Below the pieces are notes generated by a model. It saw nothing but the letters and a program-made list of their open reading frames with translations, had not been told where the DNA came from and ran no database searches. A stretch of DNA of 64,000 nucleotides, from assembly GCF_017592825.1 (NCBI RefSeq), contig NZ_JAGFMD010000001.1:496001-560000 (forward strand), in the 5' to 3' direction. This stretch comes from Roseivirga sp. E12 (GTDB taxonomy: Bacteria > Bacteroidota > Bacteroidia > Cytophagales > Cyclobacteriaceae). This document shows positions 27,552 to 49,838 of this stretch, piece by piece (position 1 is the stretch's first letter; each line of letters opens with the position of its first letter). A program made the translations under genes and the position numbers.

Positions 27552-27555
27552 TTCC

Positions 27556-29400: not shown

Positions 29401-31185
29401 ATGAACATTTCTATAGGCCAATTCAGGAAAAGAACTATCAAAAATACTAGGTGCGTTAAGCTGGTGTTAACGCTATTTATAGCCAACCTAATAACGTTAA
29501 GCACTGCCTTTGCACAGGACAATACTCAAGACAAACCTAAATCAGCCGTCTATACGATCGCATATTCATGGAATGGAATTAACCTGACTGATAATGAAGG
29601 CAAATCGAAAAACAAAATAATAACTCGTGGAGGATATGCAGCTTGGTCGCCTGACGGACAACGTTTCGCTTACTATGCAAAATATGATGAAAGAGCGACA
29701 TGGTCTATCCATACAATGAATAGTGATGGTACGAATAGGAAGAGATTAACTCATGAAAAAAACAAATGGGATAATTCACCAGCATGGTCACCTGATGGAA
29801 CAAGAATTGCATTCTCAAGGGAATACGAGGATTCGGAAGGAAATTGGACGCAAGAAGTTTGGATTATGAATTCAGATGGAAGCCAGCAGACTCAAATAAA
29901 ACCAATCAAAGGTGGTGGCCCTTACTTTACACCAGATGGTAGAATAGTCTATCACTCGGAATCCGAAAACGGAAGAACTCAGATAAGCATAGCTGATATT
30001 GATGGTAACAACATAACTCGGTTAACATATAATGAAGCTGAAGAACAGCATCCTGAGGTTTCACCTGACGGCAAGCAAATCGCCTTTATGTCTGATAGGG
30101 ATGGAAGCAAGGAAATTTATGTGATGGACATAGATGGCTCTAACCAAAAGCAACTGACGTTTAGTGAGACTGCCAAATGGTATCCATCTTGGTCGCCTGA
30201 TGGCTCTAAAATAATTTTTTCATCAACAAGCTCAGATGGAGAAAGAAATATCCATATGATGAATAAGGATGGTTCTTCACTAAAAAAAATTGTCTCTAAT
30301 GGTACACAACCCGCATGGTCAAAAGTAAAGACTACAAACAACAGTGATTCAGCTCCCGATAGTTACCAGAGTAAGGCAAACTCATATTTTGGACAAAAGC
30401 CGCCCGGCTTAGTTCCTGAAGTTTTTGCGCCTGGTATTGTTTCATTAAAAGGAAGAGTTCAAGGGTCTGTTTCTTTTTCTCCTGATTTAGACGAAATGTA
30501 TTTTTCGGCTAAGAAAAAAAGCGAGAACTGGGTAGGGACTGTGTATTTTTCAAGACTAGAAGGCAATAAATGGACTGATCTTAAAAAAGCAAATTTCACA
30601 AAAGGCGGGAGTAACGCTGAAGGGAGTCCGTTTGTAAGCCCTAGTGGTAAAAGAATTTATTTTTTAGATGATACTGACAAAATTCAGTACGTAAACCGTT
30701 CTGACGATTCCTGGAGTGACCCAATACAAGTTGATTTGCCGATAAATGACAAGGATGTGATTTTCAGCCCGAATGAAGCTGAAAATGGAGATCTCTATTA
30801 TTTCAACCTGTCAACATTCAAAATGTATTATGCACCCAACCAAAACGGTGAATTTCCCGAAGTAAAGGAAGTTGACGTTGAGTTTGGGGTTCATAATTTT
30901 ATTTCTCCATCTCAAGACTTTTTACTAGTTGATGATCGAGATCATCATGAGGACAAGACAAGAAAAGACAACGATATTTATGTCTATTTCAAGAAGAAAG
31001 ACGGAACCTGGACAAGTCCAATTAACCTTGGAAGTGAGGTAAACTCTGAATTCCCAGACACATCCCCGCGAGTCACTCCAGATGGTAAATATTTATTCTT
31101 CAGCAGATATACGGAAAATTCGGCAGCAGATATTTATTGGGTAAGCACAGAAGTTATTCACAGGTTGAGGCCGGATGACTTATGA
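29401..31185 (+). CDS. Secreted TolB-like propeller fused to QKPPG-type PD40 module
   Basis: A 594-residue exported protein. The first ~40 residues are an unusually long signal peptide ending in STAFAQD and almost identical to that of the gene at 32339. Residues ~45-310 are a TolB-like propeller (AWSPDGQRFAY, AWSPDGTRIAF, EVSPDGKQIAF, SWSPDGSKIIF). Residues ~329-594 are one copy of the module of this locus: opening GQKPPGLVPEVFAPGIVS, inner SPDL/SPSG blades, closing IYWVSTEVIHRLRP. Probably periplasmic or surface-bound, binding peptides or glycans (inference). Carries candidate LytTR site 1 in its promoter; its stop overlaps an ATG of the next frame. Confidence 0.85.
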   Translation: MNISIGQFRKRTIKNTRCVKLVLTLFIANLITLSTAFAQDNTQDKPKSAVYTIAYSWNGINLTDNEGKSKNKIITRGGYAAWSPDGQRFAYYAKYDERATWSIHTMNSDGTNRKRLTHEKNKWDNSPAWSPDGTRIAFSREYEDSEGNWTQEVWIMNSDGSQQTQIKPIKGGGPYFTPDGRIVYHSESENGRTQISIADIDGNNITRLTYNEAEEQHPEVSPDGKQIAFMSDRDGSKEIYVMDIDGSNQKQLTFSETAKWYPSWSPDGSKIIFSSTSSDGERNIHMMNKDGSSLKKIVSNGTQPAWSKVKTTNNSDSAPDSYQSKANSYFGQKPPGLVPEVFAPGIVSLKGRVQGSVSFSPDLDEMYFSAKKKSENWVGTVYFSRLEGNKWTDLKKANFTKGGSNAEGSPFVSPSGKRIYFLDDTDKIQYVNRSDDSWSDPIQVDLPINDKDVIFSPNEAENGDLYYFNLSTFKMYYAPNQNGEFPEVKEVDVEFGVHNFISPSQDFLLVDDRDHHEDKTRKDNDIYVYFKKKDGTWTSPINLGSEVNSEFPDTSPRVTPDGKYLFFSRYTENSAADIYWVSTEVIHRLRPDDL

Positions 31186-31241
31186 TCAATCCTAAGGATA
31201 AAACCGATTCCTTGTCAATCACTAATGATCAATTCAAACAT

Positions 31242-32108
31242 ATGAAAACCATCATACTATTGATGTCCATCTGTATGTTATTGCTCAACACCGCCTGTAC
31301 TCATAAAAAGACAGAACAAGACCCTAGTTTTCCACGTTTTGAGGGTCCCATTTTCGCACAAAAACCACCAGGATCAACCCCTGAAGTTTTTGCCCCCCGT
31401 ATTGTTTACACAAAAGAAAGTATGCTAGCCTCTGCGTTTTCACCCAATATAGAAGAGTTCTATTTCCGTAAAATAGATGAGGGCTTAAAAGATCAGGCAA
31501 TGATTGCTATTCAATACAATGATAATCTATGGGCTGAAACTTTTGTGATACCCAGAGGTGAGATTTCGCCTGACGGTAAGATTCTGTACGTAGGAAATGA
31601 ATACAGAGATCAAACCCCTTCTGGGTGGTCAGAGACAAAAAGCCTTGGTGCACCGTTTGATTCTATTCCCATTATGCGTCTCACGGCATCATCGCAAGGG
31701 GCTTACTATTTTGATGATGTATCATCCTTTGGTGATAAGCCGCCTGTAGTACATATTCGTTATTCACGATTAATAGACGGCATACGTGAAGAACCAATAA
31801 CCTTGGACATTGATACAGGAACAAGTTTGAAATTCCACCCATTCATCGCTCCAGATGAGTCCTACCTCATATTTGATAGTAAACCAGAAAACGGCAATGC
31901 TGATATATATATTAGTTTTCGCCAGAAAGATGGTTCATGGGGCGCTGCCATTAAGTTAGGCAATCAGATAAATACAGAGCTTTCGGATGTCTATGGGAGT
32001 GTGACATCAGATGGAAAATACTTTTTCTTTAGACGGACTCTTAGCAATGGTAAGAAAAATACCATGTGGGTAGATACTGGGTTTATTGAGGCACTCAGAC
32101 CTAAATAA
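31242..32108 (+). CDS. PD40-module lipoprotein
   Basis: A 288-residue lipoprotein. The frame opens at 31182, overlapping the previous stop, but the ATG at 31242 puts a normal lipoprotein signal first (MKTIILLMSICMLLLNTAC, lipobox Cys19). Residues ~35-288 are one module: QKPPGSTPEVFAPRIVY opening, HPFIAPDESYLIFD and YISFRQKDGSWGAAIKLG central motifs, MWVDTGFIEALRPK end. The 4-bp frame overlap suggests co-transcription with 29401; the alternative start would add 20 residues ahead of the signal peptide. Confidence 0.83.
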   Translation: MKTIILLMSICMLLLNTACTHKKTEQDPSFPRFEGPIFAQKPPGSTPEVFAPRIVYTKESMLASAFSPNIEEFYFRKIDEGLKDQAMIAIQYNDNLWAETFVIPRGEISPDGKILYVGNEYRDQTPSGWSETKSLGAPFDSIPIMRLTASSQGAYYFDDVSSFGDKPPVVHIRYSRLIDGIREEPITLDIDTGTSLKFHPFIAPDESYLIFDSKPENGNADIYISFRQKDGSWGAAIKLGNQINTELSDVYGSVTSDGKYFFFRRTLSNGKKNTMWVDTGFIEALRPK

Positions 32109-32233
32109 GAAGCCATAGACTACGGTACGAGGTGTGACTTGCTTATCAGCTATTGATAAAGCTATAAGCCCTTATCAAAAACGTATCCTTTTTTTCCTGA
32201 AAAGACACTTGGATTACACTCAGGTGAGTATTC

Positions 32234-32265
32234 AGAGCAGTTCGTTCACGCATAGAGCAGTTGAC
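32234..32265. promoter_or_regulatory. Direct-repeat pair, candidate LytTR site 2
   Basis: AGAGCAGTTCGT and AGAGCAGTTGAC, 20 bp apart, followed by AAATTAAA, 73-105 bp before the 32339 start. Sequence similarity to site 1 continues through the leader into the coding region. The stretch 32109-32233 holds only a weak imperfect hairpin (32141-32169). Confidence 0.65.
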
Positions 32266-32338
32266 AAATTAAATGGTGATGAATTACAACCGACCATACA
32301 GGTTGTGAGTAAAGACATCAAAAAAACTCCAACATACT

Positions 32339-33550
32339 ATGAACATTTATATAGGTCAATTCAGGAAAGGAACTAGCAAAAACATCAGGAGCCTTAAGCT
32401 CGTGGTAACGCTATTTATAGCCAACCTAATTACGTTAAGCACTGCCTTTGCACAGGATAATATTCAACATAACACCAATTCAACAGAGCAGGGTGAACCT
32501 GCAGTTACCCTAGGTGAAATATCTTCACTTCAGTCAAAAGTGTTAGACAAAACCGTTCCATTATCCATCCATTTACCTGCTAACTACGATAATTCCAAAA
32601 AAACCTATCCCGTGCTGTATATGTTAGGTTCAGATTACCGAGCTCGGTTCGCCATGTTGGCTTCTACGCTAGACTACATGGGCGAGGGACAAATTCCTGA
32701 GATGATACTTATTGGAATGGATTTGCCCGAAGGAAATCGCATTTTGTTGCCAACAAGGGAGAATCAAGACACAACAATTCCTGATAATTATATTAAGTTT
32801 TTCGAGACCGAGCTGATGCCGCACGTTGATAATAACTACCGGACGGCTCCCTATAATGTGCTTTATGGTGGTTCTAACAGTGGTTTTTTCACTGTTTATA
32901 CACTACTCAACAACCCCGTTCTGTTTAATGCCTACCTAGCAAGTAGCCCATCCCTGATGGTTATACCGGAAGTGCTTCAACAAAAAATAAAATCAGGTCC
33001 GTTAAAAACGCTTAGGGAAAACAGATTTCTACACATCATTTACAGCGATGATGAGGGATTAACAAATCACGTTTCTGAATTCTCTCGTGTTTTAGCGGAC
33101 CATAAACCAGAGAGTTTTACATATAAAGTGGATGAACTGGAGAACCAAGGTCATGTACCAGCGGTGGATTTTATACAGTTTCTTCTGACCTTATATCCCG
33201 ACTTTAATCCCTTCAATCCCGGTGAAAACCTGGAATCTTTAGATAAAGTGACACAACATTTCGATAGGTTATCAAAACGATACGGGTATGAAATCAAGAC
33301 ACCCATAGCGGTCCTATTTAACCATGGTTTTCATACGATACTAAGTAAGGATTTAATTGCCGCTGAAGAAATCTTTCAATATTCCATCGAAGTGTATCCT
33401 GAAGGGAAGGAATCTTATCTCGGAATGGGTCTTGTACGCAGGGCTCAAGGTCAGTTTGAAAGTGCTAAGGTTATGATCGAAAAAGCACTGATAATTGATC
33501 CAGATTTTTCACTTGCTAAAAGGTGGTTACAAAGAATCGAGGATCAATAG
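32339..33550 (+). CDS. Secreted esterase (PF00756-like alpha/beta hydrolase) with TPR tail
   Basis: A 403-residue protein. Its first ~42 residues copy the long signal peptide of the 29401 product, although the mature proteins are unrelated. Residues ~55-290 form an esterase D/IroE-like alpha/beta hydrolase (VPLSIHLPANYDNSKKTYPVLYMLGS; nucleophile elbow YGGSNSG with Ser179, where the last position of the usual GxSxG is Ser; GHVPA for the His). The last ~75 residues hold TPR-like helices (AEEIFQYSIEVYPEGKESYL). Members hydrolyse esters such as siderophores or acylated sugars; the substrate here is unknown. Confidence 0.87.
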   Translation: MNIYIGQFRKGTSKNIRSLKLVVTLFIANLITLSTAFAQDNIQHNTNSTEQGEPAVTLGEISSLQSKVLDKTVPLSIHLPANYDNSKKTYPVLYMLGSDYRARFAMLASTLDYMGEGQIPEMILIGMDLPEGNRILLPTRENQDTTIPDNYIKFFETELMPHVDNNYRTAPYNVLYGGSNSGFFTVYTLLNNPVLFNAYLASSPSLMVIPEVLQQKIKSGPLKTLRENRFLHIIYSDDEGLTNHVSEFSRVLADHKPESFTYKVDELENQGHVPAVDFIQFLLTLYPDFNPFNPGENLESLDKVTQHFDRLSKRYGYEIKTPIAVLFNHGFHTILSKDLIAAEEIFQYSIEVYPEGKESYLGMGLVRRAQGQFESAKVMIEKALIIDPDFSLAKRWLQRIEDQ

Positions 33551-33580
33551 TCATAATCTCCATCTCTCTTTATAATTCCT

Positions 33581-33612
33581 AGAGCAGTTCACTCAAGCCC
33601 AGAGCAGTTCAC
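33581..33612. promoter_or_regulatory. Direct-repeat pair, candidate LytTR site 3
   Basis: AGAGCAGTTCAC occurs twice, 20 bp apart, again followed by AAATTAAA. It is 180-211 bp before the 33792 start, farther than sites 1 and 2. The stretch 33613-33791 shows no other clear structure. Confidence 0.62.
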
Positions 33613-33791
33613 AAATTAAAGGCCTGCGGGCAGCAACTCTAATCACGTTTCAGCTGTAAACCCCAAAATACATTGTCAGTAAATACCAGGATTTGAAACG
33701 AAACACCTTAGTCAACTTAGCTTCTGGTTAGAGTTGAGAAAGTAACCTAAGAAGAATTAGTAAGAGCAAACAACCCTAAACAATTGAATAA

Positions 33792-35795
33792 ATGAAAAAC
33801 AAAACTCGGGTACTTCTTATAGCCTTTCTTGTGGCTGTCAGTAGTGCCTTTGCTCAACAAATCACAACCCAAGCACCAGAGACCAAAGGCAATGAGGCCC
33901 AACTCTCGTTTGGGGACATTCCAGAACTTGAGAAAGCATATATCTCCACTTCACCAAATAAAAGAAATGATGGTATTCCTGTAGGTAGATTGGGTGTTGA
34001 TGGTGGCGACAAGGCATTGATTCTTAAGCTGGCAAAAGCCATTGTGGATGGTAAGCATGGCAACTTCGACAGCTTTCTGATTGCCCATAATGGAAAGCTC
34101 GTCTTTGAGTCCTATTACTCCCGTGGACGTGTTAATCTGCCTCATCCGCAAGCCTCAGCAACCAAGAGCTATACAAGTCTAGCACTCGGTCGGGCTATCC
34201 AATTAGGCTATCTCTCCATGGAGGATTTACACAAGCCAGTGATCAGTTTTTTGAAAGACTTAGATCCGTCAAAGCTCGTAGCTGGTGCTGACAAAATCAC
34301 GCTGCATAAGGCACTTACTATGCGTTCAGGGATCCAACTCAGCGAAGAACAGCACGAAGAATTGGAGAAGAGCCCCAGGATGTTAAAAGGGCAGGGGCAA
34401 GTCCAAGCCTTTCTAGAGCATTCTGAACCTATTACCGAGGCAACTCAGGTTTTCGACTATAAAGGCGATCCAATACTGGTTATGCAAGTCATTGAGGCAG
34501 TTGTTCCAGGCTCTGCAAGAGACTTTATCAAAAATGAGCTGCTCAATAAAATGGGCATCATCAATTATAGCTGGGAAACTGATGTTAGTGGTTTGCCCAA
34601 ATCAGGAAATGGAACGAGAATGTTACCCCGAGATATGATCAAGTGGGGGACCTTGGCTCTTAATAAGGGTAAGTGGAATGGTGAGCAGTTGGTTCCGGAA
34701 GCTTTCATAGCCACATCAACCAGTAAAATAGTAGATCAAAGTGAAGAATATGATGACACCACAAGGGGAGTCTCTGGTACGGCATATGGCTATTTCTGGT
34801 GGCAGGCCGATTTTTCCATAGGAGATAAAAGCTATCTCGCTAAATCTGCTAGAGGTGGCAGTGGACAGAATATCTATGTGATTGAAGAGTTGGACCTGGT
34901 TGTTGTAACCACTACTCATCGTCCGGTTGATAGTTCTGTAGCAGTAACTGCGGAAAATGTAATCCCGGCTTTTATTGAAAATGCTATCTCAACAAAGGAT
35001 AGAATTAATGATGCTCCAGATGAATTCCCACCCCTTGAAGATCGTTACCTAGGTCAAAAACCACCAGGAGAAACTCCCGAGTTGTTTGCTCCCGGGATTG
35101 TTTCCACTCAGGATCAACTTGAAACTGAAGTCTTGTTCCTACCAGATATGACAGCACTTTCTTTCAATAGGGGTGATGGAGAAAATGGAGATCCTACCCT
35201 AATTATGATGGAATACAAAGACCATGATTGGGCTAGGAAACCAATTGCCTTGTCTGATATGGATAATTACAGAGAACAGTTCAGTCCTAGTTTTACAGCA
35301 CTAAATGGTCTTGAACCTTTCAAAGACATTCCCATTAGAGGAGGTGCGCTCTCGGCTAAAGGAACTTATTATTTCTACGTTTTAGATTTATCTGATGGTA
35401 CTGGCTACATGAGTTATTCCCGTCTTATCAACGGTCAATATGAACCCCCACAGAAAATGAGCAGCGCCATTAACAGAGGTAAATACATCGCACACCCATT
35501 CATAGCACCAGATGAGTCCTACCTGATGTGGGATGCCGAAAAAGAAGGTGAAGATAGGCCCGATGTCTATATCAGCTTCAGGAAGCAAGATGGTTCTTGG
35601 GGTGAAGCAATCAATATGGGAGATAAAATAAATACCCCAGTATTTGAACAACGCCCTAAAGTAACACCCGATGGAAAGTATATAACCTTTTGGAGAGGAT
35701 ACTTTGAGACCAGAGAAGATGGAAAGAGGTATTTATTAGGAAATCCTTATTGGGTGGATGCGAAGATTATTGAAACGCTAAAGTCCGAACAATAA
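33792..35795 (+). CDS. Class C beta-lactamase-like serine hydrolase fused to QKPPG-type PD40 module
   Basis: A 667-residue exported fusion. A signal peptide ends near AFAQ (residue ~22). Residues ~65-395 form a serine beta-lactamase/DD-peptidase fold with Ser122 and Lys125 in SATK, a YKGD segment at the place of YxN, and an ARGGSGQ segment at the KTG-like position. Such proteins act as esterases, amidases or peptidases as often as lactamases. Residues 419-667 form one module (GQKPPGETPELFAPGIVS to YWVDAKIIETLKSEQ). The first gene of a probable operon running to the permease at 40902, with LytTR-like site 3 ahead of it. Confidence 0.87.
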   Translation: MKNKTRVLLIAFLVAVSSAFAQQITTQAPETKGNEAQLSFGDIPELEKAYISTSPNKRNDGIPVGRLGVDGGDKALILKLAKAIVDGKHGNFDSFLIAHNGKLVFESYYSRGRVNLPHPQASATKSYTSLALGRAIQLGYLSMEDLHKPVISFLKDLDPSKLVAGADKITLHKALTMRSGIQLSEEQHEELEKSPRMLKGQGQVQAFLEHSEPITEATQVFDYKGDPILVMQVIEAVVPGSARDFIKNELLNKMGIINYSWETDVSGLPKSGNGTRMLPRDMIKWGTLALNKGKWNGEQLVPEAFIATSTSKIVDQSEEYDDTTRGVSGTAYGYFWWQADFSIGDKSYLAKSARGGSGQNIYVIEELDLVVVTTTHRPVDSSVAVTAENVIPAFIENAISTKDRINDAPDEFPPLEDRYLGQKPPGETPELFAPGIVSTQDQLETEVLFLPDMTALSFNRGDGENGDPTLIMMEYKDHDWARKPIALSDMDNYREQFSPSFTALNGLEPFKDIPIRGGALSAKGTYYFYVLDLSDGTGYMSYSRLINGQYEPPQKMSSAINRGKYIAHPFIAPDESYLMWDAEKEGEDRPDVYISFRKQDGSWGEAINMGDKINTPVFEQRPKVTPDGKYITFWRGYFETREDGKRYLLGNPYWVDAKIIETLKSEQ

Positions 35796-35846
35796 CTCAG
35801 CAAGCTTTTAGATCAAAGAAAACCAAGATTCATCAACCATTAGACA

Positions 35847-37346
35847 ATGAAAAACAGAACGTGCATGCTCCTTTCAGTGATGCTTATACTGACAAATAGT
35901 GCTTTTGTTCGACAAAGCAATGCACAAGTATCCAAGACAGCCGAAACCATTGCCATTAATACAACTGACAAAGCTGGGCTGTTAGATGGGAGTTGTGGTA
36001 ATGATGAATGGGATGCAGCAACAAAGGTGGAACTTCCAGGGCAGGCGGCTATTTTTCTTATGCACGATAAAGACTATCTCTACTTTTGCGCTTCAGGCAA
36101 AGCTGAAGACTACACCGTTCTAGACCTCTACATAGAAAATTCAGAAACTGATCGCCTGCATAAGTTTCATCTCTCTGCCCAAATGGGGGAAAGCATACTC
36201 ACCGGTAAAGAATGGGAATCTGCATCTGGAAAATGGGAGCTCCAAGATTATGCTGGTTTCTGGGTGCCTTATTCCGGACTTGAGGATGTTGAGAATAGGA
36301 AGGGTCCAATATTCCAAAAGGGGACCCATCGTCAAATGCAGATATCACGCAAAAAATTCGCTGGCAATACTTGGAATATGATGATTGGCTTGAGTGCAGT
36401 AAGACATGAGGGGGAAGGACCACTTAACTATCCTCAGTATGCAAAAAGTGATGATAATTCCACTTGGGCCCAGTTTTCATTCTCTGAAAATCAGGCATCA
36501 AAAGACCATCATCCCACACCTGAAGAAAATCTCTATTTGGGTCAAAAACCACCAGGTTTAACCCCAGAAGTTTTTGCGCCCGGCATTGTTTCAATCAATG
36601 GAAGGTTTGAGGGTGCAATTTCATTTTCTCCCGATTTAAAAGAAATGTACTTCGGAGCTGGCAATGAAGATGATGAAACACATATCTATTTCTCAAAGCT
36701 CCAAGGCAATGAATGGACTCCTATAAAAAGAGTGAATTTCACAAAGGGAAACAAAAAGGAGGAATTACATCCATTTGTTAGCCCTAATGGTGAGACGATT
36801 TATTTTACAGCCTTGGATTCTGCTTTTTCGGATGAAAAAATTTGGTCTGTAAATCGTCTGGAGGATTCCTGGAGTGAGGCCATTCTACTTGACTCACCTA
36901 TAAATGACGACATGGTGTTTTATCCTAATCAGGCAAGAAACGGTGACCTTTATTATTTCAATTTGTCACAATTCAAGATGTATTCTGCTCCCAACAGAAA
37001 CGGAGCGTTTCCCGAAACAGTAGAAATGGGAATTGAATTTGGTCACCACGGTTTCATTTCCCCATCGCAGGATTACTTGTTAGTGACTGATCGAAATAAA
37101 GAAGATGAAGGCAGAAAGGACAACGATGTTTATGTCTACTTCAAAAACCAAGACGGAACATGGACGAAGCCCATTAACCTGGGGAACACAATCAATACTA
37201 ACTGGAATGAAAAAAGTCCGAGTATCACGCCTGATGGTAAATATTTATTCTTTGGCAGAGACGAAAGAGACATAGAGCCAGGCTTATCAAATATCTATTG
37301 GGTCGATGCTCAGATTATTGAGACACTTAGGCCCAAAAAACAATAA
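35847..37346 (+). CDS. Secreted CBM9-like domain fused to QKPPG-type PD40 module
   Basis: A 499-residue protein with a signal peptide ending near NAQV (residue ~27). Residues ~40-210 resemble a carbohydrate-binding family 9/DOMON-like sandwich (LDGSCGNDEWDAATKVELPG, LDLYIENSETDRLHKF), an assignment I hold loosely. Residues 230-499 are one complete module with GQKPPGLTPEVFAPGIVS, SFSPDLKEMYF, TPDGKYLFFGR and IYWVDAQIIETLRPK. It is most like the module of 29401. The gene lies 51 bp after the serine hydrolase gene and 14 bp before the next lipoprotein, so it is inside the operon. Confidence 0.82.
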   Translation: MKNRTCMLLSVMLILTNSAFVRQSNAQVSKTAETIAINTTDKAGLLDGSCGNDEWDAATKVELPGQAAIFLMHDKDYLYFCASGKAEDYTVLDLYIENSETDRLHKFHLSAQMGESILTGKEWESASGKWELQDYAGFWVPYSGLEDVENRKGPIFQKGTHRQMQISRKKFAGNTWNMMIGLSAVRHEGEGPLNYPQYAKSDDNSTWAQFSFSENQASKDHHPTPEENLYLGQKPPGLTPEVFAPGIVSINGRFEGAISFSPDLKEMYFGAGNEDDETHIYFSKLQGNEWTPIKRVNFTKGNKKEELHPFVSPNGETIYFTALDSAFSDEKIWSVNRLEDSWSEAILLDSPINDDMVFYPNQARNGDLYYFNLSQFKMYSAPNRNGAFPETVEMGIEFGHHGFISPSQDYLLVTDRNKEDEGRKDNDVYVYFKNQDGTWTKPINLGNTINTNWNEKSPSITPDGKYLFFGRDERDIEPGLSNIYWVDAQIIETLRPKKQ

Positions 37347-37360
37347 TCCATAAACCAACT

Positions 37361-38212
37361 ATGAAAAAGCCTCACATTATTCTGATGCTAGCAGGGACCC
37401 TGTTTTTAACTGCCTGCACTACTAAAAAGCAGGATGCCTTTGACAATGATTCACTAACCGTAGAGGGCCTTTATCATGGGCAAGAACCTCCAGGAATGGT
37501 ATCAAAATCCTTAGATCAGGACATTGTATACAAGGAAGGCTGGGAACTTGGAGGGGTTCACGCCCCAAAAATGAAAGCGTTCTATCTGACCTCCACAACA
37601 GATGCTCCTTTTCGTCCCCTCGTAGTCAGCTTTAGGGAGGAAAACCGTGTCTTGAGGAAATACGAATTTTATAATTCGGGTGGCGATACGCTGTACACAA
37701 AAGACAAATACATAGAACGAACCGAGTCTGGGTGGTCGGAGATAAAGAGCCTAGGTGCACCTTTTGATACTATTCCCATTATGCGCCTTATGGCTTCATC
37801 AAATGGCACACTGGTGTTTGATGAATTCACAAGAAGTGGAAATGGTGTCCTTCGATATTCACGGCTGATAAACGGCAAGCGTGAAGCACCGAAACCTCTC
37901 AGTGCAGCCATAAACACTGGTAAATGGAACGCACATCCATTTATTGCGCTAGACGAGTCCTACATTATTTGGGATGGTGAAAGAGAAGACGGATATGGTG
38001 ATAGTGATATGTATATCAGCTTCAAACAGTCGGATGGTTCATGGGGTCCTGCCATCAACTTCGGAGATGAGATAAATACGGATGGTGAAGATGGTGGTGG
38101 ATATGTAACCCCAGATGGAAAATACCTGTCCTACTGCCCCCGTTGTAAACCCCCTTATGACAGAAAGTGGGTCGATGCACAGATTATCGAGGATCTCAGG
38201 TCAAAGCAATAA
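37361..38212 (+). CDS. PD40-module lipoprotein (divergent opening motif)
   Basis: A 283-residue lipoprotein (signal MKKPHIILMLAGTLFLTAC, lipobox Cys19). Most of it is one module, but the opening has drifted to GQEPPGMVSKSLDQDIVY, and the penultimate blade has CPRCKPPYD where others have FFNRAV-like sequence, with two extra Cys residues. Central motifs HPFIALDESYIIWDG and MYISFKQSDGSWGPAINFG and the end KWVDAQIIEDLRSKQ are intact. Its binding face may therefore differ from its neighbours. It is inside the operon, with gaps of 14 and 22 bp on either side. Confidence 0.82.
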   Translation: MKKPHIILMLAGTLFLTACTTKKQDAFDNDSLTVEGLYHGQEPPGMVSKSLDQDIVYKEGWELGGVHAPKMKAFYLTSTTDAPFRPLVVSFREENRVLRKYEFYNSGGDTLYTKDKYIERTESGWSEIKSLGAPFDTIPIMRLMASSNGTLVFDEFTRSGNGVLRYSRLINGKREAPKPLSAAINTGKWNAHPFIALDESYIIWDGEREDGYGDSDMYISFKQSDGSWGPAINFGDEINTDGEDGGGYVTPDGKYLSYCPRCKPPYDRKWVDAQIIEDLRSKQ

Positions 38213-38234
38213 GTCATAAGAAAAGCTGAAAATT

Positions 38235-39980: not shown

Positions 39981-39999
39981 ATAAGTCAAATTGAAGATT

Positions 40000-40881
40000 A
40001 TGAAAAAACCACATTCCATTCTGATACTAATGGCGACACTGCTTCTTAATGCCTGTAATGCCGATAAACAGGATGCAAAAAGCCATGATTCAGCAACCAT
40101 AGAAACAACCTTCTTTGGCCAAAAACCACCCGATTTAATTCCTGAAGCATTTGCACCCGGTGTGGTTTCCACTGAACATAGGGACAATAGCGCTTTCTTT
40201 TCACCTGACATGAAGACATTTTATTTTACCCGAATGGATATTAAAACCAAGAAATGGTCTTTGATGATTTTTAAGTATGAGAATGATCAATGGCAAGAAT
40301 CTGTGTTTGGTCCTAGAGTAGGTAGGCCCTTTTTATCCCCAGATGGTCAGACCATGCATTTGGGTGGCAAATATATGGAACGCACTAGGAATGGTTGGTC
40401 TGAGGTAAAAAGTCATGGCCCTATGATTGACCGAGACGATTGGGGTATTATGCGCCTGTCCGCTTCTGCGAAGGGCACCTATGTTTTTGACGATTATAAA
40501 AACAAAGATATAATCCGTATTTCGAGGCTAAAAGATGGCAAACGTGAAAAACCTCGGTTACTCGGCAAAGTCATTAACACTGGCAAATGGACAGCCCACC
40601 CCTTCATTGCACCAGATGAAAGTTATTTGATTTGGGATAGCGAAAGAGAAGAGGGCCATGGAGATTCGGACTTATACATTAGTTTTCGGCAACCAGATGA
40701 CACATGGGGCGAAGCCATCAACCTAGGAGATCAAATCAACACGAGCGTCTGGGAAGGTGGTGCATCCGTCACACCAGACGGCAAGTACCTTTTCTTTAAC
40801 CGAGCCGTAAGTCCCGAAAACACAGACATCTTCTGGGTGGATGCCAAAATCATCCAAGAACTCAGGCCTGAAAACAATTAA
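40000..40881 (+). CDS. PD40-module lipoprotein
   Basis: A 293-residue lipoprotein. The ATG at 40000 gives MKKPHSILILMATLLLNAC with lipobox Cys19; the in-frame TTG 9 bp upstream is unlikely. The module opens GQKPPDLIPEAFAPGVVS, contains HPFIAPDESYLIWDSE, LYISFRQPDDTWGEAINLG and TPDGKYLFFNRAV, and ends IFWVDAKIIQELRP. Last lipoprotein gene before the permease at 40902 (20-bp gap), which suggests that these surface or periplasmic propellers work with the transporter or are deployed on the same signal. Confidence 0.84.
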   Translation: MKKPHSILILMATLLLNACNADKQDAKSHDSATIETTFFGQKPPDLIPEAFAPGVVSTEHRDNSAFFSPDMKTFYFTRMDIKTKKWSLMIFKYENDQWQESVFGPRVGRPFLSPDGQTMHLGGKYMERTRNGWSEVKSHGPMIDRDDWGIMRLSASAKGTYVFDDYKNKDIIRISRLKDGKREKPRLLGKVINTGKWTAHPFIAPDESYLIWDSEREEGHGDSDLYISFRQPDDTWGEAINLGDQINTSVWEGGASVTPDGKYLFFNRAVSPENTDIFWVDAKIIQELRPENN

Positions 40882-40901
40882 ACCCTCAAAGCAAGAAAGT
40901 C

Positions 40902-43295
40902 ATGCTCAAAAACTACATCAAGATAGCCTTCAGAAACCTGTTGAGGCAACCTGGCTACACAGCCCTTAACATCATTGGACTCACGGTGGGCATTGCCTCG
41001 AGCTTGATCATATTGCTATACATCTTTCACGAAACAAGCTTCGATAAACACCATTCCAAAGGAGATCGGATCTATCGCCTTTCAACGGCATTTACGGAGC
41101 CTGACGGCTCATTTAAGTGGGCACAAATGACGATGCGGGCTGCCTTTACCGTAAAAAATGAGAACCCTGAGGTCGTACAAGCTACTCGAATGCGAGGTCT
41201 AAACGCTCAAGGTGAAATGCATTTTGAATTCAACCAAGTAGACTACTATCAAGATAATGTATACACTGCTGATTCTACCGTGTTCGATATCTTTGATTAT
41301 GAGTTTATAGGGGGGAACCCAGAAACCGCTCTCGAAGCACCTAATTCGATTGTCATCAATGAATCGATGGCAAAGAGAATATTCAGGGATGAAAATCCTA
41401 TTGGTCAAATTATTAAAAGTGGCGAAAATAGGGATCTGACTTTGCAAGTTACCGGTGTATTTAAAGATATGCCCATTTCTTCTCACCTGATCGCTGAGGC
41501 ATTGATCTCCTGGGAAACCATCTACCCTGATGGGGATTTAGGTTGGGGTATGTGGGGTGTGTTTTCTTATGTTTTGGTCAGAGAAGGAGTCACGCCAGAA
41601 GCCTTACAAATTAAACTTGATTCTACTGTTGCTAGCTATATAGCGCCAATTTTTGACCCTATCAATATCAAGGTTAAAATGGTTCCGGTTCCATTAACGA
41701 GTATCCATTTAACTTCAGATTTTGAAAATGAACCTGTGCCAGTTGGCAATATTCAATATGTCCAAATCTTTGCCGCTATAGCCATTTTTCTCATTGTTAT
41801 CGCTAGCATCAACTATATGAACTTAGCTACTGCACGATCTACTAAACGATCGATGGAGGTGGGGCTAAGAAAAGTAATGGGTGCTCAAAGAAGTAGCTTG
41901 ATTGGTCAATTTTTGACTGAGTCTATTTTGATTACGTTCATATCCCTAGTCTTAAGTATTCTTGTGGTCATAGTCGTTGTGCCAGGCATCAATGGTGTTG
42001 TAGGTACTACACTGGCTGTCAAGGGTCTGTTGCACACCAATGTGGTATTGGTAATCATCAGTATCGCGTTTGTCACCGGATTTATGGGCGGATGTTATCC
42101 TGCTTTCTTTTTATCATCCTTTCAACCTGCTGCTGTGCTTAAAGGAACAGCAGGAAAGTCAGGCGGTAAATTGTTAAGAAAGGCACTCGTGACACTTCAG
42201 TTTTCTATTTCCATTTTCATGCTGATCGGCACCTTGGTCATCTATGCACAAATGCAGTTTGTTAGGGACAAAGATTTAGGCTTTGACAAGGAACAAATGA
42301 TGAAAATCAACTTTAGGAGCAATGCAAATGCTGAGAAATGGGATCTCCTGAGAAATGAGCTGGTACAAAATACCAACATAGGCGGTGCTGCCACTGCTAG
42401 TTCCACACCAGGCAACGGTTTTTTTAATCGCATATACTCAATAGAAACTGAAGAAGGTGGAATGACACCACTTGCTTTCAATAACTACCTAGTCGACTAT
42501 GATTACTTTTCGACACTTGGAATTGAGGTAATTCAAGGGAGAAATTTCTCTTTAGATTATGCTTCCGACTCTTCTCAAGCAATCATGGTCAATCAGGCTA
42601 CTGTTAGAAGAATGAACTGGACAGACCCAATCGGCAAAAAGATCAGGATAAATAGAAATGATTCAGTACCTCCAGCGCGCATAATAGGAGTGGTCAAGGA
42701 CTTTCATCAAGAATCGCTATATGACCCCATCGCTTCGCTTGTATTTTCCCCAAGCCAAAACAATAGATCTGCCATTGTCAAAATCTCAGGAGACATCACA
42801 TCTAGTGTTGACTTTATTCAGGCTGCATGGGAAAGAACCTATCCCACTACGACTTTTGAATATTCATTTCTTGATGAAGAATTTATGGAGCATTATGAAG
42901 CAGACCAAACCCGTGGTCGATTGTTCTTAGGCTTTTCCGGTATGACAGTCCTTATTGCTTGTTTGGGGTTATTGGGACTGGCATCATATACTGCCGAACA
43001 ACGCGCCAAGGAAATAAGCATTAGGAAAGTATTAGGAGCGAATACACAGGGGCTTATAAACCTTCTTGTTAAGGACTTTGTAATCCTTATTGTAATAGCC
43101 GCAATACCAGCATCTATATTGGGCTATTTCTCTATGATGGGATGGCTGGAGAGTTTCCAATTTCATATCACTCCGGGCTTTACCATATTCTCTACTGTAT
43201 TGGCCGGTACAATGATAGTGACAGTACTTACCACGGGTTATCATGCACGTAAAGCTGCTATTGCCAACCCAGCGCAGAAACTCAGGAGTCAATAA
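40902..43295 (+). CDS. FtsX/MacB-type permease, paralogue A
   Basis: A 797-residue permease with start MLKNYIKIAFRNLLRQ. One helix at ~20-40, a MacB-like periplasmic domain at ~45-280, three helices at ~285-410 with VGLRKVMGAQ, a helix near 430-450, a second periplasmic domain and a terminal triplet with ISIRKVLGAN. It is very close to the products at 47285 and 49839: helices and coupling loops are nearly identical, and most differences fall in the periplasmic parts. Ends the operon of PD40 genes. No ATPase is encoded in the window. Confidence 0.93.
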   Translation: MLKNYIKIAFRNLLRQPGYTALNIIGLTVGIASSLIILLYIFHETSFDKHHSKGDRIYRLSTAFTEPDGSFKWAQMTMRAAFTVKNENPEVVQATRMRGLNAQGEMHFEFNQVDYYQDNVYTADSTVFDIFDYEFIGGNPETALEAPNSIVINESMAKRIFRDENPIGQIIKSGENRDLTLQVTGVFKDMPISSHLIAEALISWETIYPDGDLGWGMWGVFSYVLVREGVTPEALQIKLDSTVASYIAPIFDPINIKVKMVPVPLTSIHLTSDFENEPVPVGNIQYVQIFAAIAIFLIVIASINYMNLATARSTKRSMEVGLRKVMGAQRSSLIGQFLTESILITFISLVLSILVVIVVVPGINGVVGTTLAVKGLLHTNVVLVIISIAFVTGFMGGCYPAFFLSSFQPAAVLKGTAGKSGGKLLRKALVTLQFSISIFMLIGTLVIYAQMQFVRDKDLGFDKEQMMKINFRSNANAEKWDLLRNELVQNTNIGGAATASSTPGNGFFNRIYSIETEEGGMTPLAFNNYLVDYDYFSTLGIEVIQGRNFSLDYASDSSQAIMVNQATVRRMNWTDPIGKKIRINRNDSVPPARIIGVVKDFHQESLYDPIASLVFSPSQNNRSAIVKISGDITSSVDFIQAAWERTYPTTTFEYSFLDEEFMEHYEADQTRGRLFLGFSGMTVLIACLGLLGLASYTAEQRAKEISIRKVLGANTQGLINLLVKDFVILIVIAAIPASILGYFSMMGWLESFQFHITPGFTIFSTVLAGTMIVTVLTTGYHARKAAIANPAQKLRSQ

Positions 43296-43333
43296 GGAGC
43301 ACATTAACTAAAAGGTTCATCCCATAGGTTAAC

Positions 43334-43366
43334 GTAGAAGTTATTGAAAATATCAGACCCAAATAG
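43334..43366 (+). pseudogene. 3' remnant of a PD40-module gene
   Basis: Directly after the permease, the bases translate in one frame to VEVIENIRPK and a TAG stop, a clear match to the conserved closing motif (VDAQVIENLRPK) of the module genes. The sequence just before has no matching frame, so only the last ~11 codons of a former gene survive. It suggests a deletion or recombination between module genes at this point. Confidence 0.6.
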
Positions 43367-43401
43367 GACAGTCCATAGTAAATCAGTCTAATAGATGAGT
43401 A

Positions 43402-44109
43402 TCAATTTTTAATTGACTCAATCACTTCCCTATAAGAGGCACCAATTGGAATTTCAATATCACCAAGTAGTACAGCATCCTTTGTGGTGAGGTAAGAGAT
43501 TTTTTCAGTATTGATAATATAGGAGCGATGAACCCTCATGAATGAGGCGGGGAGCTTTTGAAAGAAAGAACTGATCTTATCTTTTGTGATAATGTTGTCT
43601 TTTGCTGTATGTATCCTCACATAGTCTTTAATACTGTCAATATATAATATGTTATCAAACTCTATTCTTACCATCTTCTTGTTTGAGTTAACATAGATGT
43701 GATCTGATACTTTTTCGAGTTCTGATGCGGTTTGTGAATTGAGCTGAGTAGACGTGTTTAATGCCCTATATTTGTTAATGGCTTTATAGAAACGAATAAA
43801 AGATATTGGTTTAAGTAAGTAATCAATGATATCTAATTCATAACCTTCCAGAGCATATTCTCTGTGAGCTGTTGTCAGTATAACTTTAGGTTGTAAACTT
43901 GTGTTCTTAATAAAATCTATGCCCGTAACCACAGGCATTTGGATATCTAAAAATAACAGATCTACAGTATCATTTTGAAGGAAATCTCCGGCAGTAATTG
44001 GGTTATCAAATGTAGCTGCAAGTTCAAGGCCAGGCACTTGGCTGATATGCTTTTCAATTACCTTAATGGCCAATGGTTCGTCATCTATAACCATACACTT
44101 TATACCCAT
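43402..44109 (-). CDS. LytTR-family response regulator (second pair)
   Basis: A 235-residue regulator: receiver domain with phospho-acceptor Asp55 in FLDIQMP, and a LytTR DNA-binding domain at ~130-235 (LYIDSIKDYVRIHT, FMRVHRSYIINTEKI, GDIEIPIGASYREV). It starts 1 bp after the kinase gene, giving an operon. It lies on the strand opposite to the array that surrounds it and may control the divergent lipoprotein-permease operon at 45425, whose upstream region has a 9-bp palindrome. Confidence 0.94.
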   Translation of the reverse strand: MGIKCMVIDDEPLAIKVIEKHISQVPGLELAATFDNPITAGDFLQNDTVDLLFLDIQMPVVTGIDFIKNTSLQPKVILTTAHREYALEGYELDIIDYLLKPISFIRFYKAINKYRALNTSTQLNSQTASELEKVSDHIYVNSNKKMVRIEFDNILYIDSIKDYVRIHTAKDNIITKDKISSFFQKLPASFMRVHRSYIINTEKISYLTTKDAVLLGDIEIPIGASYREVIESIKN

Positions 44110-44110
44110 A

Positions 44111-45187
44111 CTATTTTAAATTAATGGTTAATGATACCTGAAAATCTTTGTCAGTTTTGGTGCTTTTCAGGTCATAGTTGTTTTTATAATTCAGTTCTAG
44201 TTGTCTCTGTGAATTGGAAAACCCAATGCCAGCACGTGTCTCATCTTCCGTATCAGCTTGCTTGTTTGTCGGAAGTGTATTGAGAACTTTAAAGTGAAGT
44301 TGCTCTTCATTGGTGGTCAATTCAATTCGAATTGTCGAGTCTTTGAGGTTCTTGCTAGGACCATGTTTAAAAGCATTTTCAACAAACGATATGAGTATCA
44401 AAGGTGCGATCATTACGTTGGGAGCATGAAGCTGATGTGTAAAGCTCAACGACAACTTATCCCCATAACGAAGAGACTCTAGGTCTATATAATCCTGTAT
44501 AAAGGCAATCTCTTTTTTTACTGGTACTTCATCGTCTTTACACTGATAGAGCATATAGTCTAACATGCCCGATAGTTTTAAAACAACTTCAGGTGCTTTC
44601 TCTGATCGCTCTAATGTCAAAGAATACAAATTGTTTAATGTATTAAACAGGAAATGAGGGTTGGTTTGTGCCTTTAAGAATTTAAGCTCGGTATTGGCCT
44701 TTTCCTTTTGCAAAACTTCCAGTTGATGGCGCTCTTCAAAACGATCCTTAAAGGCTTTCGTCATAAACATTAAAAAAACGAAGACGTAGACAGAAGGAAA
44801 GTGTACTACGGCTAGATGAAAAGGGTCTTCTAAGATTGATATTAAACTTTTGGGATTATAGTATTGAGGAAGTAGGGCTTTGGACAAATACAGGCTTGAC
44901 AGCCTTGAAATCACTAAAAACACATACACTGAAATGAGAAAGGATACTCCAAACAGAAAGTACTTCTTTTTGAATAGAAGTTTTGGAACCTGATAGTATA
45001 CTAAGAAATAACTGGCTAATAATTGAGCCGGTAAATACCCCAAACCGCTGACCAGAGTCTTTTCAACGCTTCCATCATTTAATACAGCCAGTATAGGCAA
45101 AATTATAAATAGTGAAAACCAGAATATAAAGTGTGAAACCACTCTATTCTGAATGACCCAATCGATTAGGTGCTTTCTTTTGACCAT
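44111..45187 (-). CDS. LytS-type sensor histidine kinase (second pair)
   Basis: A 358-residue kinase with four hydrophobic helices in ~15-160 and short loops, then a coiled region and a His_kinase domain: AQTNPHFLFNTLNNLYSL holds the acceptor His, and the ATPase end shows ISFVENAFKHGP and GIGFSNSQRQLEL. There is no large periplasmic domain, so it should detect a membrane or lipid-soluble signal or a partner protein. It diverges from the lipoprotein gene at 45425 across a 237-bp gap. Confidence 0.92.
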   Translation of the reverse strand: MVKRKHLIDWVIQNRVVSHFIFWFSLFIILPILAVLNDGSVEKTLVSGLGYLPAQLLASYFLVYYQVPKLLFKKKYFLFGVSFLISVYVFLVISRLSSLYLSKALLPQYYNPKSLISILEDPFHLAVVHFPSVYVFVFLMFMTKAFKDRFEERHQLEVLQKEKANTELKFLKAQTNPHFLFNTLNNLYSLTLERSEKAPEVVLKLSGMLDYMLYQCKDDEVPVKKEIAFIQDYIDLESLRYGDKLSLSFTHQLHAPNVMIAPLILISFVENAFKHGPSKNLKDSTIRIELTTNEEQLHFKVLNTLPTNKQADTEDETRAGIGFSNSQRQLELNYKNNYDLKSTKTDKDFQVSLTINLK

Positions 45188-45375
45188 TAAGCATGAATAT
45201 ATAAAACCTGCAGTAGATATTCCTTGAAAAAAGACGAACCCTCATTATCTCTGGCCCAAATCGAATATGCAACAGAGCTATCACATTCTCTGGTGATACA
45301 CATTTTATGGCCTTCATTAAATCTGGTTTGTCTACTTTACACTTTTGCATTGGCTCTATTTACTAGGTTTAGCTA

Positions 45376-45401
45376 AGTACCTTACTCCAGATTAAGGTAC
45401 T
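45376..45401. promoter_or_regulatory. Palindrome before the second lipoprotein-permease operon
   Basis: AGTACCTTA and TAAGGTACT form a perfect 9-bp inverted repeat with an 8-nt loop, 24 bp before the ATG at 45425 and 189 bp from the divergent kinase start. There is no T-run. It may be an operator or a leader hairpin; I see no AGAGCAGTT pair in this gap. Confidence 0.5.
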
Positions 45402-45424
45402 CTTCATAGTAAATAGGTCAATTA

Positions 45425-46327
45425 ATGAAAAAGGTCTACTTCATTCAAGTACTTGCATGGGCACTATTCTTATGTGCCTGTAATACTGAAAAGCTATATC
45501 GCACTGATAATGATTTGGCCAGTATAGCAAGCCCTTATCTTGATCAAAAACCCCCGAGTTTGATCCCTGAACCTTTCGCTCCTGATATGATTGCTAGGGA
45601 GAACTGGCAAGTTAGTGGTGTTTTCACCCCAGACTTAACAGAATTCTATTACATCAGAGAGGTTGGAGAAACTGAAGAAGATAAGAAAATGGAATTTGTG
45701 GTTCTTCAGAAGAAGAATAACCAGTGGCAGGAGTCAGTAATATCCCCTAGAGTAGGCCAACCTTTTATATCACCTGATGGACGTGTTATGCACTTAGGCA
45801 GAAGATATAAAGAGCGTACAGAGACCGGTAACTGGTCAGAAATAAAAAACCTAAGTACTCCCTTTATGGAGATCCCAATCATGCGTCTCACGGCTTCTAC
45901 TAAGGGAACTTACGTTTTTGATGCAATGGGAGAGGGAGTTCTTCGATATTCTCAATTAACAGATGGGAAACGTGAAGAACCGAAGCTATTTAATGAAGAA
46001 ATCAACTCGGGCACAGCAAATGCTCATCCTTTTATTGCACCAGATGAGTCTTACATACTGTGGGATAGCAGAAGAGATAGTGGGTATGGTGATGCCGATA
46101 TCTATGTCAGTTTCAGACAAGAAGACGGTTCATGGGGGGAGTCAATTAACCTAGGAGGCAAGGTCAACACCGAAAGGTCGGAAGGGGGTGCACGTGTTAC
46201 ACCTGACGGAAAATATCTTTTCTTCGGCCGTAACATGGGGAAGTTAAAACCCACTGACAGATATGATGATTCAGACATCTTCTGGGTAGATGCTCAGGTT
46301 ATTGAAAATCTTAGACCTAAAAAATAA
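45425..46327 (+). CDS. PD40-module lipoprotein
   Basis: A 300-residue lipoprotein (signal MKKVYFIQVLAWALFLCAC, lipobox Cys19). The module opens DQKPPSLIPEPFAPDMIA, continues with ISPRVGQPFISPDG, HPFIAPDESYILWDSR and VSFRQEDGSWGESINLG, and ends IFWVDAQVIENLRPK. It is close to 40000 and to module 2 of 38235. First gene of the second operon (lipoprotein, PD40 protein, permease), divergent from the second LytS/LytTR pair, with a 4-bp gap to the next gene. Confidence 0.84.
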   Translation: MKKVYFIQVLAWALFLCACNTEKLYRTDNDLASIASPYLDQKPPSLIPEPFAPDMIARENWQVSGVFTPDLTEFYYIREVGETEEDKKMEFVVLQKKNNQWQESVISPRVGQPFISPDGRVMHLGRRYKERTETGNWSEIKNLSTPFMEIPIMRLTASTKGTYVFDAMGEGVLRYSQLTDGKREEPKLFNEEINSGTANAHPFIAPDESYILWDSRRDSGYGDADIYVSFRQEDGSWGESINLGGKVNTERSEGGARVTPDGKYLFFGRNMGKLKPTDRYDDSDIFWVDAQVIENLRPKK

Positions 46328-46331
46328 GAGA

Positions 46332-47246
46332 ATGAAAACTGCTGTACTTTTAATATTGGCTTGTGTTCCATCGTTCAACATTGTCTCTGCACAAGAGAAA
46401 GTTAAAAACAATACCAGCCACCCAACTACGAAAGAACTGTATTTTGGAGAAGAGCCACCGGGCCTAATCCCTAAACTGTTTGATCCCGCCATTGTCTCCC
46501 CAGAAGGACTTTTTGAAGGAGGTAAATTGACACCGGATGGGAAGGAATACTACTTTACCAGGAAAAATGGAAAATATAAAGAACGCACATCTTTCGTTAT
46601 TCGATATGAAAACGGGAGCTGGGGCAACGAGTCTGAGACCAAGCTAAGATGGTCCAAATTCTCTAAGGGAGGAGATACTTTATACGCTGGAAATAAGTAT
46701 AGAATTCGAACCTACACAGGTTGGTCAGAATATAAAAGCCTTGGGACACCTTTTTCAGATAAGCTAATCATGGGAATATCGTTTTCAGACAATGGGACTT
46801 CTTACTTTGATGAAATTGAGTTTGATGAATCAGGAAAACCTGATACAGTTGGCGCTATCAGTTATTCTGGCCTTATAAACGGAAAATATGAACCTCGCCA
46901 AAAGTTAGGCAAGGAGATTAACACCGGAACATGGCTTGCCCACCCTTACATTTCACCAGATGAATCTTATTTGATATGGGATGTCAGAAGAGAAGATGGC
47001 CACGGTGGATCTGATATCTACATAAGTTTTCGAACGAAAGATGGTTCCTGGGTACCAGCAATTAACATGGGGCCTCAAATAAACACCCCATTAAGTGAAA
47101 GTGGTGCAAGAGTGACAGATGATGGTAAATATCTGTTTTTTACCAGAGGGCAATGGGAGATTAAAGAAGATGGAAGTAGGAATTGGGTAGGTAAGTCATA
47201 TTGGGTGGACGCAAAGGTTATCAAAAATCTCAGGCCCAAAAGATAG
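46332..47246 (+). CDS. Secreted PD40-module protein
   Basis: A 304-residue protein. The ATG at 46332 gives an ordinary signal peptide (MKTAVLLILACVPSFNIVSA, then Gln) without a lipobox cysteine at the expected position, unlike most of its relatives, so it is probably soluble. The module opens GEEPPGLIPKLFDPAIVS, has HPYISPDESYLIWDVRREDG and YISFRTKDGSWVPAINMG, and ends YWVDAKVIKNLRPKR. It is closest to module 1 of 38235. The permease gene starts 38 bp later. Confidence 0.84.
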   Translation: MKTAVLLILACVPSFNIVSAQEKVKNNTSHPTTKELYFGEEPPGLIPKLFDPAIVSPEGLFEGGKLTPDGKEYYFTRKNGKYKERTSFVIRYENGSWGNESETKLRWSKFSKGGDTLYAGNKYRIRTYTGWSEYKSLGTPFSDKLIMGISFSDNGTSYFDEIEFDESGKPDTVGAISYSGLINGKYEPRQKLGKEINTGTWLAHPYISPDESYLIWDVRREDGHGGSDIYISFRTKDGSWVPAINMGPQINTPLSESGARVTDDGKYLFFTRGQWEIKEDGSRNWVGKSYWVDAKVIKNLRPKR

Positions 47247-47284
47247 CTGCTAAATCAAAAGTCAAAAGACAAACAACTACTCAT

Positions 47285-49796: not shown

Positions 49797-49838
49797 AATA
49801 AAGGTTTCAAGACGTCAAAACGTTAAACAACATCTCAA

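Follow-up and report, generated by a model that had tools for sequence, protein, structure and literature searches.

A candidate sensor-induced capture-and-hydrolysis system built on PD40 propeller modules in Roseivirga sp. E12

We analysed a 64,000-nucleotide stretch of the Roseivirga sp. E12 genome (contig NZ_JAGFMD010000001.1, positions 496,001 to 560,000 of the forward strand; hereafter the window, whose own numbering is used), in which nine genes hold ten PD40 modules of ~255 residues each between 30385 and 47243. Judging from gene content and conservation, this region may represent two adjacent cassettes of an undescribed, horizontally spread, sensor-induced envelope capture-and-hydrolysis system, a proposal for and against which we consider the evidence evenly balanced. 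The first cassette comprises a minus-strand LytTR regulator and LytS-type kinase (26853-29241), followed by a plus-strand run (29401-43295) that codes in order for a TolB-like propeller with a module, a module, an esterase, a serine hydrolase with a module, an N-terminal domain with a module, a module, two modules in one protein, a module and a permease. The second consists of another regulator and kinase (43402-45187) and then module, module, permease and permease genes (45425-52232). Genes are designated below by their first position (Table 1). The initial annotation of this DNA, made from its sequence, had considered the system possibly undescribed, and we likewise found no description of it in the open-access literature, subscription journals and preprints being outside the scope of that search.

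All ten copies in nine genes listed in that annotation were recovered, including the tandem pair in 38235. A profile built from the ten window modules gives these same modules 313-398 bits, and in the rest of the genome it finds one more near-full-length match of 164 bits (C2:34665), the others being partial and weaker. The shared opening and closing noted initially are indeed conserved, with mean pairwise identities among the ten copies of 60% for residues 1-20 and 56% for residues 253-261. The interior, described as varied, contains both more and less variable parts: with blade limits set by our own reading, blades 1 to 5 are 26%, 38%, 36%, 53% and 49% identical. Acids at positions 25 and 222 and His170 are conserved in the module. 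Of the nine module proteins, eight have PD40 repeats by Pfam, the exception at E 0.01 being 33792, and a sequence search of the PDB with the module profile gave a best E value of 0.057. The AlphaFold2 model of the second module of 38235 is confident (predicted local distance difference test score, pLDDT, 95; predicted template modelling score, pTM, 0.92), and we read it as a probable five-bladed propeller. Single-module proteins had been taken for lipoproteins. This holds by lipobox pattern for 37361, 39991 and 45425 and by eye for 31182; in contrast, 46290 looks by eye like a signal-peptidase-I protein, although the lipobox pattern also picked up a Cys there.

These modules recur with hydrolases. 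The components, which we call the kit, are the module, the TolB-like propeller, a PF00756 esterase and a PF00144 serine hydrolase, and they are fused in several pairings. In the window, Pfam bore out the proposed fusions to a TolB-like propeller in 29401, whose TolB-like part also matches other propeller families, and to a serine hydrolase in 33792. The CBM9-like domain assigned to 35847 was not confirmed, its N-terminus having no Pfam match, and the esterase and serine hydrolase had been overlooked as recurring neighbours and fusion partners. The neighbourhood sample comprises 78 loci picked by module similarity and not by context (two repeats were removed from 80), with family labels from BLAST clusters and Pfam run on a sample of members. 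Up to 1.5 kb from a module, serine hydrolases have a density of 13.5 per 100 kb, as against 2.0-5.9 farther out; for esterases, the corresponding densities are 8.6 and 0-3.4. An additional domain-sized stretch is present in 36 of 168 module genes. Half of these 36 (18) are serine hydrolase-module fusions by clustering, with Pfam run on three. Pfam analyses of ten other fusions revealed four with an esterase, two with PF00144 (one module-hydrolase and one module-hydrolase-module-hydrolase protein), two with PD40-rich partners, one with ankyrin repeats and one without a known partner; the rest are 29401 and 35847 of the window and six that were not scanned by Pfam. In three more proteins, the esterase and the serine hydrolase are joined directly to each other. 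The SxxK motif of the hydrolase reads SATK in the window copy, and its Ser122 and Lys125 are nearly invariant (≥90%) in 25 kit homologues and absent in L150. Two fusions have unusual architectures: a 1,322-residue protein of a Kangiella metagenome-assembled genome (MAG) holds two modules and two PF00144 stretches (L148, 9869-13837), and in a congener, ankyrin repeats are joined to a divergent module (L072, 7637-9022).

The kit genes are also associated with regulators. Both sensor pairs of the window combine a PF06580 kinase with a PF00072-PF04397 regulator, as expected for LytS/LytTR systems. Operons were walked along the run of each locus's first module gene only, with unlabelled open frames <130 aa dropped. 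In 24 of 43 Bacteroidota loci (eight run off the contig, leaving 24 of 35 readable) and in 6/20 loci of the window and further relatives (four run off, 6/16 readable), a LytS-type kinase is the divergent upstream neighbour of the module run. Among 35 Pseudomonadota loci, ten have a divergent CadC-like regulator (four run off, 10/31 readable), 'CadC-like' being used as a label. CadC/ToxR-type proteins are the known kind of regulator to which these Trans_reg_C and PD40 genes are compared, and the one CadC-like regulator scanned, divergent in a gammaproteobacterial locus, combines Trans_reg_C with PD40 by Pfam. The 78 loci have 11 CadC-like genes at distances of up to 3 kb from a module; between 3 and 10.5 kb there are none. 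Clustering yielded 12 genes for Trans_reg_C and PD40-type regulators, including one in the window that is not beside the cluster.

An operator-like direct repeat also accompanies the kinases and kit genes. Of 36 kinase-side intergenic regions, 11 have a 10-base repeat matching at no fewer than nine of ten positions at a spacing of 20; 0.6 would be expected from mononucleotide shuffles, and every other spacing from 12 to 39 gave 0-2. By printed sequence, ten of the 11 correspond to the GAGCAGTT motif (L090:16581 does not), and eight further intergenic regions carry this motif with 8 matches. The 4.7-Mb genome of Roseivirga sp. E12 contains three copies of GAGNNGTT-N12-GAGCAGTT, every one of them in cassette 1, and none of the reversed-pattern control. 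The three sites precede 29401, the esterase gene 32339 and the fusion gene 33792, each a kit gene, and those before 32339 and 33792 had no role in motif discovery. Searching 45 other genomes gave 18 sites in 13 genomes (reversed control, 1). Nine are found in the intergenic region of the kinase and a kit operon and three within kit clusters; one precedes a serine hydrolase gene that stands alone, and a further three lie between a kinase gene of this class and one for an outer-membrane protein, so that 16 of 18 adjoin this kinase class or kit genes. The last two have no such neighbours and look like chance occurrences; one of them is the single site found in 20 searched genomes without a strong module. 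The confinement of the repeat to the cluster in this genome and the divergent kinases support the link to LytTR genes proposed at the outset, and a housekeeping domain scattered singly with no such link, named then as the refuting outcome, is not what the data show. AgrA is described as binding two direct repeats, like other known LytTR sites (PMC4227749), and BtsSR as a LytS/LytTR two-component system (PMC10653868). The window pairs resemble these systems in their domains and, in cassette 1, in the direct repeats upstream of putative targets; they differ in that the neighbours are hydrolases and propellers, and that the GAGCAGTT repeat is nearly confined, in the genomes searched, to the kit and its kinase class.

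Other intergenic regions have patterns of their own. The three sites next to an outer-membrane protein gene, with the same kinase class, are in L173, L174 and L175 (G332:C14, G331:C1 and G347:C58); the assignment of this protein to the TonB-dependent type comes from Pfam in L173, which also has a module and an esterase downstream, and from BLAST alone in the other two. Sensor pair 2 has a divergent promoter region (45188-45424) with a conservation pattern of its own, which it shares with related intergenic regions of Aquimarina loci. In CadC-type intergenic regions, a 22-bp-spaced direct repeat has at least 9/10 matches in five of ten, many with GTCAG or ATCAG cores, and is a candidate operator for the proteobacterial version.

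We determined the relationships of the modules in a tree of 170 full-length sequences from the window, its relatives and named genome contigs; modules of <150 bits or not spanning the profile were left out, and L136 and L144, the same records as L059 and L057, were dropped before counting. The ten window copies fall in ten places: they need ten changes, and starred branches force ten (shuffled mean 9.8). Each is closer to an outside module (55-92% identity) than to any sibling (at most 64%), close Aquimarina species inflating the outside identities. In 39 records with two or more modules, none of the 117 modules has its nearest relative in the same record, and mean module identity, an average independent of nearest neighbours, is 44.8% within records vs 47.6% between records. 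Local expansion, as initially proposed, is thus not borne out, and recent tandem duplication is ruled out by the ten tree places and the lack of same-record nearest relatives. In this sample, the sets of propeller types have no close duplicates.

The distribution of strong modules is patchy. Of 18 congeners, seven carry them; in a sample of 294 other genomes of the class, one does (E 1e-60, the best nine candidates per genome being scored). Window modules are up to 71% identical to those of an alphaproteobacterial MAG contig. In comparison with Flavobacteriales loci, the window regulators are 75-79% identical, kinase 2 is 81-83% and kinase 1 67-70%. Horizontal spread is the simplest reading of the patchiness and of the identity across orders. 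Two plasmid records match the module at E 1e-20, with identities of 53% and 30%. The former is pSU1 of Agarilytica rhodophyticola (L183), in which the module gene lies beside genes for a co-directional OmpR-type regulator (PF00486) and a HisKA kinase.

The FtsX-type permeases were the other partner proposed in the initial annotation, and this association is real within narrow bounds. Among themselves, the three permeases next to window modules share 76-78% identity; with module-adjacent permeases of four congeners and one Cyclobacteriaceae contig they share 71-90%, as against about 30% with the two other permeases of the window. This subfamily is a real yet lineage-limited addition. Among the 78 loci, one such gene was labelled near a module, and FtsX as a general partner is rejected outside the genus and that contig. 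The genome has 44 LytTR matches and at least 150 MacB_PCD matches, the latter from the best 150 of 208 candidates scored in 4.7 Mb, so mere proximity of a permease or LytTR gene means little. Most of the open frames with MacB_PCD matches are about 790-960 residues long, and they often form runs, indicating a very large permease family. In L068, a divergent module lies inside a run of FtsX genes of a different kind.

Taken as a capture-and-hydrolysis system, the cassettes would work as follows. The divergently encoded sensor pair would detect an outside or periplasmic signal, and in cassette 1, the LytTR regulator would act through the 20-bp-spaced direct repeats to turn the operon on. The operon would yield the esterase, the serine hydrolase and a set of propellers, which by their signal types would be lipoproteins or secreted proteins. 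Fusions and linkage suggest that the propellers capture the substrate, or pieces of it, and keep it close to the fused or co-encoded hydrolases, both serving one compound. Each cluster seems to keep several old, separate propeller types with a more constant part (the ends, blade 4 and the invariant His170) and a more varied part, blade 1 above all, and its range therefore probably spans several related ligands. A particular MacB/FtsX-type permease has been added in this genus. Our best guess for the substrate, from the enzyme families, is a small molecule or peptide with ester or amide bonds. Among solved structures, the kit esterases come closest to BES- and IroE-like, siderophore-type PF00756 esterases (2qm0, 3gff, 6gud), by resemblance only, and the kit serine hydrolase to Lsa45 and 6-aminohexanoate-dimer hydrolase (8dc1, 4gb7); this hydrolase keeps the SxxK motif but is a separate, often module-fused subfamily. 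These relatives hint at ester or amide bonds but at no particular substrate. A more general form, which we consider rather unlikely, is a modular, horizontally mobile recognition-and-hydrolysis system. In it, one signal would induce, through a dedicated sensor and operator, a repertoire of mutually divergent propeller types on a common frame, and each type would pass its own ligand, one of several related ones, to a tethered or fused esterase and serine hydrolase. Genes whose labels would otherwise read merely PD40 protein, serine hydrolase or esterase appear to belong together as one regulated system in Bacteroidota and Pseudomonadota. The cluster-confined repeat offers a handle on it: regulon membership can be predicted from sequence, and a reporter screen could reveal the inducer and, via the inducer, the substrate.

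Several observations weigh against this interpretation. The loci are rich in Aquimarina, so the counts are not independent, and these Bacteroidota have many kinase genes, with 14.8 per 100 kb between 1.5 and 3 kb from a module vs 3.8-6.5 in other bins. A separate esterase or hydrolase gene is present in the module run of 24/43 Bacteroidota, 18/35 Pseudomonadota and 5/20 other loci, fused ones being uncounted; many modules therefore stand without a separate hydrolase. Counting from the hydrolase side supports the link, as close homologues of the serine hydrolase (≥400 bits) in 25 module-bearing genomes lie within 2 kb of a module in 18 of 22 cases, but this count was not blind, some of these genomes having been chosen for a hydrolase at the fetched locus. 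The other four lie away from modules, three in one Pseudoalteromonas genome and one as an esterase-hydrolase fusion opposite a kinase-regulator pair. The esterases form two sub-types with a mutual identity of only 21-27%. The model of the hydrolase-module fusion (pTM 0.55, with a low-confidence linker at 397-416) shows no fixed geometry and favours neither a flexible nor a fixed mount. Cassette 2 of the window contains neither a hydrolase nor a copy of the repeat. Finally, the repeat is lacking as an exact copy in 13 of the 25 module-bearing genomes, including all eight proteobacterial ones, and the cluster of G010 has a degenerate form of it in place of an exact copy.

It is also possible, if rather unlikely, that the cassettes are induced to protect the cell from an antimicrobial with ester or amide bonds, such as a depsipeptide, combining the sensor, the hydrolases, binding propellers and, in this genus, the MacB/FtsX permeases. 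The adjacency of sensor pairs to FtsX/MacB-type permeases and hydrolases, the patchy presence and the high identity of the regulators across orders all fit such a role, as does an ABC-ATPase-like gene found at 1.9 per 100 kb between 1.5 and 5 kb from modules vs 0.3-0.5 farther out in the 78 loci, often beside a second conserved opposite-strand gene in Aquimarina. However, the linked permease is missing from most loci, and the three repeat sites that precede an outer-membrane protein gene elsewhere, TonB-dependent by Pfam in the one scanned, better fit uptake. Bce-type peptide-sensing modules associate an ABC ATPase with an FtsX permease and a kinase; the window cluster genes scanned include no ABC ATPase.

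We consider it unlikely that the modules are themselves enzymes, that is, lactonase- or glycosidase-like propellers, with the cluster encoding several hydrolases for one substrate family. A fold in common with such enzymes would by itself show no function, and no module protein has a glycosidase match in Pfam at E 0.01, which leaves the module outside the GH43, GH62 and GH130 sequence families. Identity to folds of these types is 6-12%, and Foldseek lists TolB on top for the module model, with TM-scores of about 0.34-0.55. In addition, position 25 is Glu, Asp or Gln in 7 of the 10 window copies and position 120 is Arg in 5 of 10.

A structural role, as outer-membrane or peptidoglycan-associated proteins akin to the PD40 propellers of PorE or CHU_0125, is very unlikely. 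All nine module proteins do partially match NF053607 (29-75 bits) and NF052230 (15-70 bits), but the cut-offs are 620 and 600 bits, Pfam finds no OmpA-like domain, and the partners are hydrolases and sensors. Membership of the PorE or TolB families is rejected on these scores: in TIGR02800 (TolB, cut-off 343), 29401 reaches 157 bits with its TolB-like N-terminus and 35847 reaches 17.7, the other seven module proteins having no match at E 0.01, and the module differs from TolB and PF07676 propellers in its weakly PD40 character and apparent five blades. Least credible is recent local tandem expansion into a repertoire of binders: ten copies stand side by side with ends more alike than their middle, and a probable tail relic between the cassettes points to copy loss, but the scattered tree positions, the nearer outside relatives and the lack of same-record nearest neighbours refute such an origin in this sample, and the repertoire is possibly maintained by selection instead.

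Polysaccharide utilization loci, with their SusC/SusD pair, provide another example of regulated capture and hydrolysis at the Bacteroidota envelope. Capture and hydrolysis in the window cassettes would differ from theirs, as no SusC/SusD pair is present among the window cluster genes scanned and the enzymes are an esterase and a serine hydrolase rather than glycosidases.

Table 1. Genes, modules and repeat elements of the two cassettes (window coordinates).
Feature	Position	Strand	Evidence and remarks
LytTR response regulator, sensor pair 1, 232 aa	26853-27551	-	PF00072 + PF04397; best eight matches among fetched loci 75-78% identical
LytS-type histidine kinase, pair 1, 561 aa, divergent from cassette 1	27556-29241	-	PF06580; best eight matches 67-86%
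First operator-like repeat, GAGCAGTT-N12-GAGCAGTT, in the intergenic region of kinase 1 and 29401	29301-29328	+	Genome motif search
TolB-like PD40 propeller + module (30385-31182)	29401-31185	+	PF07676, five stretches; TIGR02800 157 bits, cut-off 343
Single-module protein, lipoprotein by eye (module 31350-32105)	31182-32108	+	
Second operator-like repeat, upstream of esterase	32235-32262	+	
PF00756 esterase with TPR tail	32339-33550	+	PF00756 58.8 bits (curated cut-off 22), TPR_1; best eight matches 69-83% identical
Third operator-like repeat, upstream of hydrolase-module fusion	33582-33609	+	
PF00144 serine hydrolase + module (35046-35792)	33792-35795	+	PF00144 61.4 bits (curated cut-off 27); SxxK motif
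N-terminal domain without Pfam match + module (36534-37343)	35847-37346	+	
Single-module lipoprotein (37472-38209)	37361-38212	+	Lipobox pattern
Two-module lipoprotein (38346-39131, 39189-39977)	38235-39980	+	Lipobox pattern; second module modelled
Single-module lipoprotein (40111-40878)	39991-40881	+	Lipobox pattern
MacB/FtsX-type permease, module-linked subfamily	40902-43295	+	PF12704 + PF02687; identities
Likely module-tail relic, VNVEVIENIRPK + stop	43328-43366	+	8/12 residues agree with VDAKVIENLRPK
LytTR response regulator, pair 2	43402-44109	-	PF00072 + PF04397; best eight matches 76-81% identical
LytS-type histidine kinase, pair 2, divergent from cassette 2	44111-45187	-	PF06580; best eight matches 81-83%
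Single-module lipoprotein (45536-46324)	45425-46327	+	Lipobox pattern
Single-module protein, signal-peptidase-I type by eye (46440-47243)	46290-47246	+	
MacB/FtsX-type permease, module-linked subfamily	47285-49675	+	PF12704 + PF02687; start set by register with 40902, open frame starts at 47201
MacB/FtsX-type permease, module-linked subfamily	49839-52232	+	PF12704 + PF02687

The short element just after the first permease gene (43328-43366) is probably the tail of a lost module copy. Elsewhere in the window, a Trans_reg_C and PD40 regulator gene (4169-6250) is followed by a gene for an S9 peptidase with a PD40 match (6334-9066). This regulator belongs to the same BLAST cluster as the gammaproteobacterial regulators encoded opposite kit operons, yet its gene lies 20 kb from the cluster.

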